IMG/VR virus record: IMGVR_UViG_3300037963_000506
Coordinates: 1 to 33,075 of that record
Strand: one strand, 5' to 3'
Length of the DNA: 33,075 bases
Source of the DNA: a virus
The position numbers were made by a program, and so were the translations under genes. Positions 819-33,075 of this stretch are shown piece by piece. The notes under the pieces were generated by a model. That model ran no database searches, was not told the origin of the DNA, and was given only the letters and a program-made list of their open reading frames with translations. Every line of letters begins with the position of its first letter. Within the stretch, counting starts at the first letter, position 1.

Positions 819-1058
819 AGTTTCTCCCCTGAGAAATGGGTGGTAGGTTTGTCCTATATCCTGCCACCTTAAAATATTTGAGTACAGAGTGAAGCTTAAT
901 TAAAACAACATAATTCTAGATTGAGAAATGTTTTAAATATGACTAAACATGGTACTTAATAGGTAGAGAGGAATTGTGTGCGAGGATTCGAAATCTAGAA
1001 TAAAAATGCCGCACCTCTAGCTTTTCTCTCTACTGCTATATTAGAAAGGTTCTAAACT
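819..1058 (+). ncRNA. structured intergenic element, possible ncRNA or leader
   Basis: There is no gene in these 240 bases, but several strong pairings are visible. TTTCTC 821-826 pairs with GAGAAA 831-836. GGTGGTAGG 839-847 pairs with CCTGCCACC 860-868 (one G-U). ATTCTAGATT 913-922 pairs with AATCTAGAAT 992-1001 (10 perfect pairs). GTAGAGAGGAA 963-973 pairs with TTTCTCTCTAC 1023-1033 (one G-U). GTGCG 978-982 pairs with CGCAC 1010-1014. The third pairing crosses the fourth and fifth, so a pseudoknot is possible. The element ends about 25 bases before the start at 1059, which has AAAGG at 1045-1049. It could be a terminator followed by a regulatory leader, a riboswitch-like RNA or a free small RNA. 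I could not match it to a known class. Confidence 0.45.
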
Positions 1059-3921: not shown

Positions 3922-4440
3922 ATGGAGTTAAATAAATCAGTAGGTAAAGTAGATTATATATCTGCACCTAAACCAGGTAAGGATCAATGGTTCATGCCTG
4001 TTGTACTAAATCAAAGTGGAACTAAGATAAAGTTCTATTGTAAGTTTGATCCACAAGTAACAGTTGGTGATGAAGTTCTAGTACATTATGGACAAGAACG
4101 TAATGGTAATGCTACTGCATTCAAAGTAGAAAGACCAGATAAAGATATCAATGAAGCAGGTGGTGGAGCGAAAGCGACACCAAATAATTCTAAGGCTTTA
4201 CCACAAGATATGATAGCAGTAGGATTGGCTGGTCGAATAACTGAAGTGCTTATGACGTTACACCATGAGAAAGGTATCCAATTAAAAGATCCAGCAGGTG
4301 AAGTAGCTAAATGGATTTTAATAGGTCAAGAAGGATACAACAATGCAACTAATGATGTAGTAGATCAAATTAAAGATGCATACCCTGGTACAACTATAAA
4401 GAATGTTGATGATGATATTGATGATGAAGTACCATTCTAG
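3922..4440 (+). CDS. single-stranded DNA-binding protein-like
   Basis: The start at 3922 has a strong AGGAG at 3911-3915; a longer frame from 3847 would lie inside the exonuclease and is rejected. The 172-residue protein begins with a beta-rich segment (about residues 1-75: KIKFYCKFDPQVTVGDEVLV) that could be an OB fold. It continues through a Gly/Asn linker and a helical region and ends in the acidic tail DDDIDDEVPF. That ending closely resembles the C-terminal tip of bacterial SSB (...DDIPF), which docks replication and repair enzymes. Function by motif: coating single-stranded DNA made by the upstream exonuclease. The N-terminal assignment is less certain than the tail. Confidence 0.72.
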   Translation: MELNKSVGKVDYISAPKPGKDQWFMPVVLNQSGTKIKFYCKFDPQVTVGDEVLVHYGQERNGNATAFKVERPDKDINEAGGGAKATPNNSKALPQDMIAVGLAGRITEVLMTLHHEKGIQLKDPAGEVAKWILIGQEGYNNATNDVVDQIKDAYPGTTIKNVDDDIDDEVPF

Positions 4441-4457
4441 AAAGGAAAATAAATAAA

Positions 4458-4610
4458 ATGAGATCATTTAAATATGATAAAACAGGTGCAGGTAAACCTG
4501 GAGTTCGATCTGGACTTAGAGTTAATAATTATATAGTTGATAGCAAAACTACATTTCGTAACAAAAAAAGATTATGGAATAAGTTGATAAGTCAACAAAA
4601 TAATAAATAG
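4458..4610 (+). CDS. small basic protein (50 aa)
   Basis: ATG 4458 follows AAAGGAAAAT at 4441-4450. The 50-residue product has about twelve lysines and arginines, begins MRSFKYDKTGAGKPGVRSGL and ends RLWNKLISQQNNK. The basic, glycine-containing N-terminus suggests nucleic acid binding. It lies between the SSB-like gene and an unknown, with its own ribosome binding site, so it is probably translated. No family recognised. Confidence 0.5.
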   Translation: MRSFKYDKTGAGKPGVRSGLRVNNYIVDSKTTFRNKKRLWNKLISQQNNK

Positions 4611-4621
4611 AAAGGAGTAAC

Positions 4622-4945
4622 ATGACAATCATTACAAGAGAAGGTATGGAGAAAGCTCTCCAACAAAACTACGATAACGAAGATACTGAGGCAGAACATG
4701 TAGCTCAAGCTAGTTATGTTAAGGAGTATCTAAGAACTGTATTGGCTGAACAAGTATTCAAAGCTCCAAATGATTTATCAGGTGCAATGAAAGAACATTG
4801 GGCCAGACAAAGTGATGAATACAAACAACATCTACTAGCTATGAAAGAATCTATAAGACTCAAAGAGAAAGATAACTTCCGTAGAAAAGATAATGATATG
4901 TATTGTTCTCAGTTTCAATCACTAACCAAAGCTGGTGCTATATGA
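4622..4945 (+). CDS. hypothetical helical protein (107 aa)
   Basis: A good ribosome binding site (AAAGGAG at 4611-4617) precedes the start. The product is almost entirely helical and charged, with YVKEYLRTVLAEQVFKAP and HLLAMKESIRLKEKDNFRRK. It ends at a TGA that overlaps the next ATG (ATGA). It has no membrane segment and no metal site. Its place between SSB-like and MazG-like genes suggests DNA or nucleotide metabolism, but the function cannot be read from the sequence. Confidence 0.6.
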   Translation: MTIITREGMEKALQQNYDNEDTEAEHVAQASYVKEYLRTVLAEQVFKAPNDLSGAMKEHWARQSDEYKQHLLAMKESIRLKEKDNFRRKDNDMYCSQFQSLTKAGAI

Positions 4946-6417: not shown

Positions 6418-6845
6418 TTTTTAACTAACGATCCACCAAAGTAGAGTCCGATTATAGCTGATACAAGATTAGTATCTAATGGTGTAATGACGATACCTCT
6501 ATGAGCCATAGGAACCCACTTCATTACATCTTTACCTTCAAAGAATAAGAAACCAGGGTTCCATTCTGTATATCCTACAATAACATGAGCTTCTGGATCT
6601 ATTAATGGAAGTATCTTAGGCAATACAACAATAGCAAAAATAGCTGTTAGTGCTATGATTCTTCTTGTCCATTGGAATCCTACGTTCTCATATTCTCTTG
6701 CTTCTTTAAATGCTTCAGTTTGTACTTCAGCTCTTTGTATAAGAAGTTTTTGTTCAGCTTGTTTAGCTTTAATGGACTGACTCCAGATGGACATCACCCC
6801 TCCTAGGACTGTAGATCCTAGCATAGTAATCATTTCAAAAGGCAT
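6414..6845 (-). CDS. 3TM holin-like membrane protein
   Basis: The 143-residue product has three hydrophobic segments at about residues 4-20 (EMITMLGSTVLGGVMSI), 63-82 (IIALTAIFAIVVLPKILPLI) and 125-140 (NLVSAIIGLYFGGSLVK). A charged helix lies between the first two. This matches the 'holin of 3TMs' family found in gene transfer agents and marine phages, which makes holes that let the lysozyme reach the wall. GGAG lies about 7 bases before the ATG. The lysozyme gene lies 23 kb upstream in the same operon, so the two are expressed together but not adjacently. Confidence 0.68.
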   Translation of the reverse strand: MPFEMITMLGSTVLGGVMSIWSQSIKAKQAEQKLLIQRAEVQTEAFKEAREYENVGFQWTRRIIALTAIFAIVVLPKILPLIDPEAHVIVGYTEWNPGFLFFEGKDVMKWVPMAHRGIVITPLDTNLVSAIIGLYFGGSLVKK

Positions 6846-7178
6846 TTAGTTCTCCAAGTAATAAGACTTTATGAGTTCATCTACAACCAAACCTTGTATT
6901 GTAGACGGAGTACCATCACCCCTACGAGGTGCAGCAGCTGCCATTCTCTCTAAAGACTTATCTAAGTTTTTTCTTATTTGTAATCGTTCAGTAATATCGT
7001 CAGATAAATCAATCAACATATCACTAAATACTGTTCCTATTTTCATATCACTCCAGATACGAACAACTCTAGGCATCATATCTTTAGGATCATATCCTAT
7101 GTTTACATAGAACTTATGATTATCCATTTCATATTTTCTAGTTACTCCAGGTCGTCTATTGCTTTCAGGCTCATACAT
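6846..7178 (-). CDS. TSCPD-like domain protein
   Basis: I place the start at ATG 7178 because GAGGAG lies seven bases upstream; a longer frame would overlap the preceding gene. The 110-residue product reads like the small domain found alone in phages and at the C-terminus of B12-dependent ribonucleotide reductase: KFYVNIGYD (23-30), SDMLIDLSDDITERLQI (52-68), and RRGDGTPSTIQGLVVDELI (85-103). The classic TSCPD cysteine is absent. The stand-alone proteins have no firmly known role; a link to nucleotide reduction or redox is inferred from the family only. Confidence 0.58.
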   Translation of the reverse strand: MYEPESNRRPGVTRKYEMDNHKFYVNIGYDPKDMMPRVVRIWSDMKIGTVFSDMLIDLSDDITERLQIRKNLDKSLERMAAAAPRRGDGTPSTIQGLVVDELIKSYYLEN

Positions 7179-32115: not shown

Positions 32116-32814
32116 TCAAACAGACGAATTTGAGTCGATCAGGTCTGTATCTACCATATTAAGGTTACCTGCTACTGTACGCCTCTCTCCGTCACCCTCA
32201 AAGGGATAGACACAATGCTGTGTCCAGGATGGAAACATCAGTAGTTTACCAACTTCGGGCTTAACAGTCCGTGAGAATGGTGGTCTTAGCTCCTCCAAAC
32301 CCCGTATCCCTGTCTGTCCGAAGTGAAATTGCAGGAATCCGTCTGCGATTCCACTAGAATTGTAGAGATCTGACGACTTATAGGCATCTTTCTCTGCAAT
32401 CTGGGGTGGTATCTTAGTCCATGTGGTAAATGATAAGCCCATAAGCGTATCAATTCCATGGTCATGCAAGGGATTGTAGTCTCTCTCGTATGAATGAACC
32501 GACCATAGACTGTGAACATGGGGAGTTCTTCTTAATTCTTCAACTCCGATAGTCCTGCAAAACTGTTTTATGTACTCCTGGGACATATACGCCACAATAT
32601 TAACAAAGGGGGTTATCAATGGATCCTTTGAATCGATCTTTAATTGTTCCCCGTGGGATATTTGACCTACCAGTTTATCTCCGAAATCCTCTCCACCCTT
32701 GTTATGCCGTGCATCGAGGTATTCGTTCAAACCCCCTATGACCTTTTCTGGTAACTGTGTCTCTAAAAATAGAACAGCTGGAGCAACTGAGAACTTCATG
32801 GTTATCTCTGTCAT
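32116..32814 (-). CDS. 2OG-Fe(II) oxygenase-like protein
   Basis: The 232-residue protein fits the phage-type 2OG-FeII_Oxy_5 fold: YNPLHDHGIDTLMGLSFTTW (H117, H119 as iron-binding region), FPSWTQHCVYPF (H200) and GERRTVAGNLNM (R211/R212 for the 2-oxoglutarate carboxylate). Such enzymes hydroxylate proteins or small molecules; phage copies are often of unknown target. Two sample lines in the gene count about 52% GC by hand, far above the roughly 27-35% of the structural genes, which suggests recent acquisition. It opens the late operon, with a sigma70-like promoter immediately upstream. An ATG five codons in is an alternative start. Confidence 0.78.
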   Translation of the reverse strand: MTEITMKFSVAPAVLFLETQLPEKVIGGLNEYLDARHNKGGEDFGDKLVGQISHGEQLKIDSKDPLITPFVNIVAYMSQEYIKQFCRTIGVEELRRTPHVHSLWSVHSYERDYNPLHDHGIDTLMGLSFTTWTKIPPQIAEKDAYKSSDLYNSSGIADGFLQFHFGQTGIRGLEELRPPFSRTVKPEVGKLLMFPSWTQHCVYPFEGDGERRTVAGNLNMVDTDLIDSNSSV

Positions 32815-33075
32815 ATCTCTTTGTATCGTTTCCTTGTGTGTGTGTCAATTACGGAATACTGTTTACAAACCTCCGTATATATATTTACCTCTACCCTTAT
32901 ATTATTTCGTCCTATCCCGTTCTAAAACCCCCCTCTTTCCTTTTACCTCTACCTCTGTACCTCTTAGGTACTACTTACTCGTCTTGAATTATCCCCTTGC
33001 CTACGTTCTCTCTTTGATTGTGTACCTTGTGTCTCTAGGTACGAACTACGCCTTTATTCCCTACCTCAAGTACGC
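32815..33075 (-). other. non-coding leader with repeated GAGGTA
   Basis: These 261 bases upstream of the late operon hold no gene on either strand that I can support. The - strand is purine-rich and contains GAGGTA five times (+ strand TACCTC at 32886, 32944, 32950, 32958 and 33062) and GTACCTA twice. The + strand is pyrimidine-rich. Possible roles are binding sites for a late activator or terminase, or simply sequence bias. The promoter above lies at its inner end. Confidence 0.4.
32820..32848 (-). promoter_or_regulatory. sigma70-like promoter of the late operon
   Basis: On the - strand TTGACA (32848-32843) is followed after exactly 17 bases by TACAAA (32825-32820). The -35 is a perfect consensus; the -10 matches at four of six positions. 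A transcript would begin only a few bases before, or at, ATG 32814, leaving almost no leader, or it would serve the second in-frame ATG at 32799. The spacer contains a (CA)n run (CACACACA). Confidence 0.55.

Follow-up and report, generated by a model that had tools for sequence, protein, structure and literature searches.

Shuffled arrays of two-domain RNA modules in phage genomes: candidate accessory RNAs of Pelagibacter-type phages

Background

Few biological entities on Earth are as numerous as the phages of SAR11, whose genomes are tightly packed; little is known of the defences of SAR11 cells. Several described systems resemble the arrays reported here in part. The mitochondrial double-hairpin elements comprise two flush hairpins that show presence/absence and recombination, while the put antiterminator RNAs of HK022 are two neighbouring stem-loops in phage RNA with one conserved sequence. 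The repeats of the type III antitoxin ToxI are alike and short, with a core and overhangs amounting to ~35 nt, and ToxN of P. atrosepticum cuts between AA and AU (PMC8860590). The tigRNAs of the TIGR-Tas systems are 36-nt units with short guide spacers (PMC12045711).

The modules described below, each made up of a first domain, X, and a second, Y, share with ToxI the tandem arrangement, an H-type pseudoknot (in the Y class that we term Ypk) and A-rich linkers; unlike in ToxI, the units of the type seen here are not one repeated sequence, have two domains each and are much longer. As in TIGR arrays, they are phage-borne and show conserved junctions around two variable parts with a possible end terminator, but in place of fixed-length spacers the variable parts are folded domains that span 10-140 nt, in units of ~50-210 nt. 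The Nop domain of Tas (PF01798), which TIGR arrays require, is absent from the window by a search that was positive in four control genomes. Like the mitochondrial double-hairpin elements, the modules present an adjacent hairpin pair and presence/absence (module 2 in the related locus L001 and site 2 in L305), but they differ from them in their RNA-level selection and ordered arrays. In contrast to HK022 put, X and Y show great diversity and occur repeatedly. Phage tRNA arrays, too, group small, optional structured RNAs within an operon, but here ARAGORN finds no tRNA or tmRNA gene in the window. To our knowledge, this domain-swapping architecture is undescribed, even if the modules should prove to be merely mRNA elements; searches of open-access papers turned up no description of such arrays.

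The window and its relatives

The window, i.e., the whole stretch of DNA analysed (33,075 nt), is a 33-kb virus record that codes for phage portal, terminase and head proteins. Among phage records, Pelagibacter phage EXVC031P Hodr comes closest at the nucleotide level, over a short coding stretch that lies between the two array sites; the array sequences themselves have no nucleotide match in 50,697 phage records. Relatives were collected via the upstream 82-aa gene and a DNA pattern, and the modules were surveyed in 42 IMG/VR contigs. At the gathering threshold, Rfam 15 matches no family in the window or in 11 related loci, in agreement with an earlier reading made from the sequence alone, which had placed the element in no named class; permissive thresholds give chance matches only. 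A strict pattern of two modules and a linker yields 14 scattered chance matches in bacterial genomes and no chromosomal copy (linker-less modules escape this pattern). Two loose-pattern scans of viral sequences likewise returned chance matches, and a further viral pattern scan recovered mainly an unrelated phage group.

Module architecture

The sequence-only reading had described a single element; what emerges from comparison is instead two two-domain modules of a larger array system. Each module has the form UAUU-X-RAUA followed by Y, the two domains being stacked flush, and modules are joined by YGYUAAAA linkers. A parser whose sole criterion is that each of two neighbouring stretches be closed at its ends by a stem resolves most modules as an X with the ends TATT...RATA, a gapless Y, and then GCTAAAA or a variant thereof before the next TATT. 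The Y ends it finds are GAGAG...CTCTC, GGTAGAGAG...CTCTCTAC or GGGTGGTAGG...CCTACCACC. The X outer stem, UAUU/RAUA, closes domains ranging in size from a mini-hairpin to ~140 nt. The Y outer stem is typically GAGAG/CUCUC, and one Y class encloses an H-type pseudoknot; most Y classes have no obvious pseudoknot, and many modules or Y domains are plain hairpins. The linker between modules is unpaired and A-rich. Modules are ~50-210 nt in length, and those within one array are unlike each other. The window carries modules at 820-869 and 875-1034 (site 1) and at 1594-1701 and 1709-1772 (site 2), with the following parts:

820-837, + strand: site 1 module 1, X; hairpin GTTTCTC-CCCT-GAGAAAT, the pairing of which is kept by relatives such as ATTCCGTTAGAGGAAT
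838-869, + strand: site 1 module 1, Y of class YA; hairpin GGGTGGTAGG...CCTGCCACCT, by comparison
870-874, + strand: linker TAAAA (general form YGYUAAAA-UAUU)
875-961, + strand: site 1 module 2, X of class XL; outer stem UAUUUGAGUAC (875-885) / GGUACUUAAUA (951-961)
962-1034, + strand: site 1 module 2, Y of class Ypk; outer stem GGUAGAGAG / CUCUCUACU around the pseudoknot
1594-1639, + strand: site 2 module 1, X; TATTCGGATG...CATCCGATA
1640-1701, + strand: site 2 module 1, Y of class Y11; GAGAGAGAT...ATCTCTCTC
1702-1708, + strand: site 2 linker GCTAAAA
1709-1724, + strand: site 2 module 2, X; TATTCTCAAGAGAACA, an X shared by 9 contigs
1725-1772, + strand: site 2 module 2, Y of class Y4; GAGAGCCGAAGTCG...AGGCTCTC, with the compensatory change CAGG/CCTG to CAGA/TCTG

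The X/Y boundary of the module at 1709-1772 was missed by the parser and is set from the identical X domains in relatives. The X-Y class pair of the YA module occurs in 20 contigs, where the changes preserve pairing, many of them as G-U. The XL domain of the window has an interior divergent from its class, and its outer stem is kept in 12 of 12 aligned relatives; within the class, the XL hairpin covaries, with C-G pairs replaced by G-C and by A-U. Behind Y4, GCTATAATTTTTC is a possible terminator tail that the consensus scan did not flag. As a separate observation, the palindrome in the XL hairpin loop varies yet stays palindromic or nearly so (UCAGCUGA, UUACGUAA, CACGUG and UCAGUUGA; L004 468-604, L007 2865-3000 and L026), making kissing-loop dimerisation possible.

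A conserved H-type pseudoknot

The region 819-1058 folds at -61.4 kcal/mol against a shuffle mean of -47.4 (z -3.4), with none of 200 shuffles as good; site 2 and a six-module array fold modestly better than shuffles. A scan of minimum free energy along the whole window is not discriminating, the arrays being inconspicuous by energy alone. The case is built on comparison and not on energy.

The sequence-only reading had proposed a structured, pseudoknotted RNA at site 1, and both structure and pseudoknot are real, but the particular pseudoknot and the boundaries of the element were wrong. All the pairings it listed exist as strings: 913-922 (ATTCTAGATT) and 992-1001 (AATCTAGAAT) are perfectly complementary, as are 978-982 and 1010-1014, and 963-973/1023-1033 has 10 Watson-Crick pairs and one G-U. 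The crossing helix 913-922/992-1001, which amounts to two paired copies of the palindrome TCTAGA, had been taken as rare by chance. Perfect complementarity over 10 bases or more arises in 13 of 500 dinucleotide shuffles, and the helix occurs in the window only, none of 16 homologous modules having it. In those 16, the longest complement between X and Y is 4-6 bases, with a mean of 5.71 versus 5.83 for mismatched X and Y. As shuffles match its length, homologues do without it, and a conserved stem, whose bases it would consume, needs the same positions, we treat this helix as unsupported. The pairing 978-982/1010-1014, by contrast, covaries in homologues. It is one half of an H-type pseudoknot, the partner of which, 995-999/1016-1020, had been overlooked:

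978-982, + strand: 5' strand of stem S1, GTGCG, pairing with 1010-1014; covariation
995-999, + strand: 5' strand of stem S2, CTAGA, pairing with 1016-1020; covariation
1010-1014, + strand: 3' strand of S1, CGCAC; covariation
1016-1020, + strand: 3' strand of S2, TCTAG; covariation

As judged from covariation, S1 crossing S2 is a genuine pseudoknot. The 962-1034 domain was compared in 17 versions, in all of which the pseudoknot can be placed, with ~5 bp in S1 and 5 bp in S2, a loop that is 12 nt in most, and then one that is 8-10 nt in most; the 3' strand of S2 begins directly, or one base, after that of S1. The variants of S1 include GTGCG/CGCAC, GTGTA/TACAC, AGCCA/TGGCT, AGCAA/TTGCT, AGCTA/TAGCT and GTGAG/CTCAC, and those of S2 CTAGA/TCTAG, CCAGT/ACTGG, CTAAG/CTTAG, CTAGG/CCTAG and CCAAC/GTTGG. 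Stems were read by position because MAFFT misaligns S1 between the pseudoknot subfamilies. A search for the tight junction recovered the pseudoknot unaided in 11 of the 17 members; in the other six (L008, L010, L039, L301, L298 and L294) the stems were set by eye at the homologous position, a procedure biased towards pairing, with one bulged base dropped in L010. Counted over the 17 homologues, which are related sequences and not independent events, S1 is paired in 64 of 70 cells with 14 distinct helices (shuffled mean 36; 0 of 5000 shuffles reach this), and S2 in 25 of 25 cells with 5 distinct helices (reached by 41 of 5000 shuffles).

Domain shuffling and array turnover

Across the 42 contigs, we distinguish 21 X classes and 21 Y classes, defined by hand-made sequence signatures, in 34 X-Y combinations. 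XGATCAATGG is joined with Y14, Y9, Y17 and Ypk; XGCGTTATG with Y8, Y6, Y20 and Ypk; and XGGTATCAG with Y6, Y12, Y16 and Y17. Conversely, Ypk is found behind XL, XGCGTTATG and XGATCAATGG, and Y4 and Y6 likewise behind three X classes each. Such reciprocal exchange is difficult to account for unless the domains recombine at the X/Y junction. These tallies, like those of strand below, come from related sequences and do not count independent events.

The number of modules at a site ranges from zero to six, and an array occupies up to ~650 nt of one site. Site 2 has no modules in L305, two in the window and six in L369, and L001 is missing module 2 of site 1. The contig 3300030419_000400 bears different arrays at its two ends with one identical 132-nt stretch in common; in all probability, they represent alleles of two strains. 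Of 20 contigs, seven end less than 450 nt from the site-1 gene versus 0.65 expected, which points to hypervariability and could reflect repeats instead of functional diversity. Taken together, the sequence comparisons give good support to an RNA structure, to a modular architecture and to shuffling.

Two further features were seen in relatives. In L022 (~6820-7000, reverse complement) and L349 (723-806), an extra X is apparently inserted between XGGTATCAG and Y6, which are directly joined in L297. More module sites occur elsewhere in the genomes (L019 1190-1430; L039 6667), one of them among structural genes.

Strand bias and gene context

The stems of fixed register contain, on the + strand, 29 G-U pairs, one A-C and two other non-Watson-Crick pairs; the same 29 G-U pairs read on the minus strand are A-C mismatches. 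As G-U is tolerated on the + strand alone (29:1), selection acts on RNA. This bears on whether the modules are selfish or drifting DNA elements, comparable to the mitochondrial double-hairpin elements and without function for the phage. Two adjacent hairpins, presence/absence polymorphism and spread between unrelated phages would all agree with such an origin. It is, however, very improbable given that the one-strand tolerance, conserved loops and pseudoknots speak of RNA-level selection, and that insertions are restricted to a few intergenic sites of compact genomes.

The modules are read on the same strand as the adjacent phage genes. L371 and L373 have two modules ahead of a different gene, and blastp detects nothing in common between their genes and those of the window within the 13.4-kb stretch compared; L371 encodes a polymerase, a helicase and a primase. 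Its modules lie directly behind a sigma-70 promoter, TTGACA-17-TATTAT (11 of 12 positions, extended -10), and promoter matches in the window region are no commoner than in shuffles.

The genes 3' of the arrays vary, coding for acidic proteins of 44-53 residues, proteins beginning MSF, MDDL, MTHP and MNKYK, and others, at least five of them unrelated. Site 2 closes an operon at its 3' end; no same-strand gene follows, a convergent gene for an HExxH protein lies opposite, and L014 and L037 have the same module class at operon ends. In L001, which lacks module 2, the leader and ribosome-binding site of the next gene are unchanged. These three observations make it unlikely that the modules regulate the 53-residue protein gene as its leader, as the sequence-only reading had suggested. 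The position just upstream of that gene and the pseudoknot, typical of riboswitches, would fit a cis-regulatory leader, be it a riboswitch or a ribosomal regulator; as the downstream gene is of at least five kinds, operon ends carry the same class and the leader in L001 is unaltered despite the missing module, we consider this scarcely credible.

Outside the modules, a hairpin TTAGAA-AGG-TTCTAA (1041-1055) holds in its loop the ribosome-binding site of the gene at 1059-1220, and the leader of this gene, TTAGAAAGGTTCTAAACTATG, recurs ahead of different genes in relatives. The window also encodes, at 1774-2133 on the minus strand, a 119-aa protein with an HELMH motif and a weak resemblance to SprT/DUF6782 metallopeptidases; its gene adjoins site 2 in many relatives.

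Possible functions of the modules

As the likeliest reading, if at somewhat short of even chances, we propose that the modules are co-transcribed accessory RNAs of Pelagibacter-type phages, processed at their linkers, acting in trans and exchanged by recombination. The array would be transcribed together with the neighbouring genes, and a host or phage endoribonuclease would cut the A/U-rich linkers, freeing single X-Y RNAs that could then serve the phage in trans. Their combinatorial turnover hints at a role on which diversifying selection acts, for example, decoying or inhibiting host factors or defence proteins that themselves vary. That this amounts to a new phage system—combinatorial RNA arrays in which two separately evolving domains swap at fixed junctions and the transcribed string is cut into two-domain RNAs, a fast-evolving stock of effectors or decoys directed at the host—we hold to be plausible, at slightly lower confidence. 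No target of the modules, partner protein or link to defence was found when looked for.

The modules might instead serve in cis as mRNA processing or stability hairpins, guarding the 3' ends of upstream mRNAs and separating the expression of flanking genes, their diversity being mostly neutral drift and recombination. They always lie beside same-strand genes, the linkers are A/U-rich like RNase E sites, a T-rich tail follows where site 2 ends an operon, and there are plain hairpins among many modules. Several classes, however, retain internal loops that are long and specific, as well as pseudoknots that covary, beyond the needs of a barrier; up to six modules stand in one array and empty sites occur; we therefore judge this explanation unlikely, if still the weightiest of the alternatives. 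The internal loops of XL (GUUUGAAU..AUAYAYAAC) and the pseudoknot would favour specific partners over general mRNA elements.

A particular form of action in trans would be that of ToxI-like antitoxin or decoy arrays, with cleaved pseudoknots binding host endoribonuclease toxins, one module per toxin. The tandem arrangement, with its H-type pseudoknots and A-rich linkers, recalls this, and AAAU, a site of the type cut by ToxN, occurs in the linker UAAAAUAUU. Such an assignment is nonetheless improbable: the modules are dissimilar, of ~50-210 nt and two-domained versus the short, alike ToxI repeats, and the pseudoknot is not evident in most Y classes. No toxin gene is detected in 11 records, where the ToxN family (PF13958) has no match in a search that gave none in control genomes either.

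If the co-transcribed modules do act in trans as accessory RNAs, they would represent an RNA counterpart of phage accessory-gene clusters and an arms race at the RNA level; they would also add new RNA folds by the dozen and open a direct way into the defences of SAR11.

Other structured loci

Two further stretches with potential RNA structure were noted. At 32840-33075 on the minus strand of the window, upstream of the gene at 32116-32814, lies a long non-coding stretch with many hairpins and no match in phage records; its relative in L031 (reverse complement, ~4240-4700) resembles a large structured RNA. In another marine phage group, L320 (4960-5110) and ~30 similar loci have a different conserved pseudoknot candidate after a stop codon, with GGGTGG..CCACCC crossing GAGAG..CTCTC, and a 46-nt stretch beside it is matched right at the beginning of the record of Pelagibacter phage HTVC202P.
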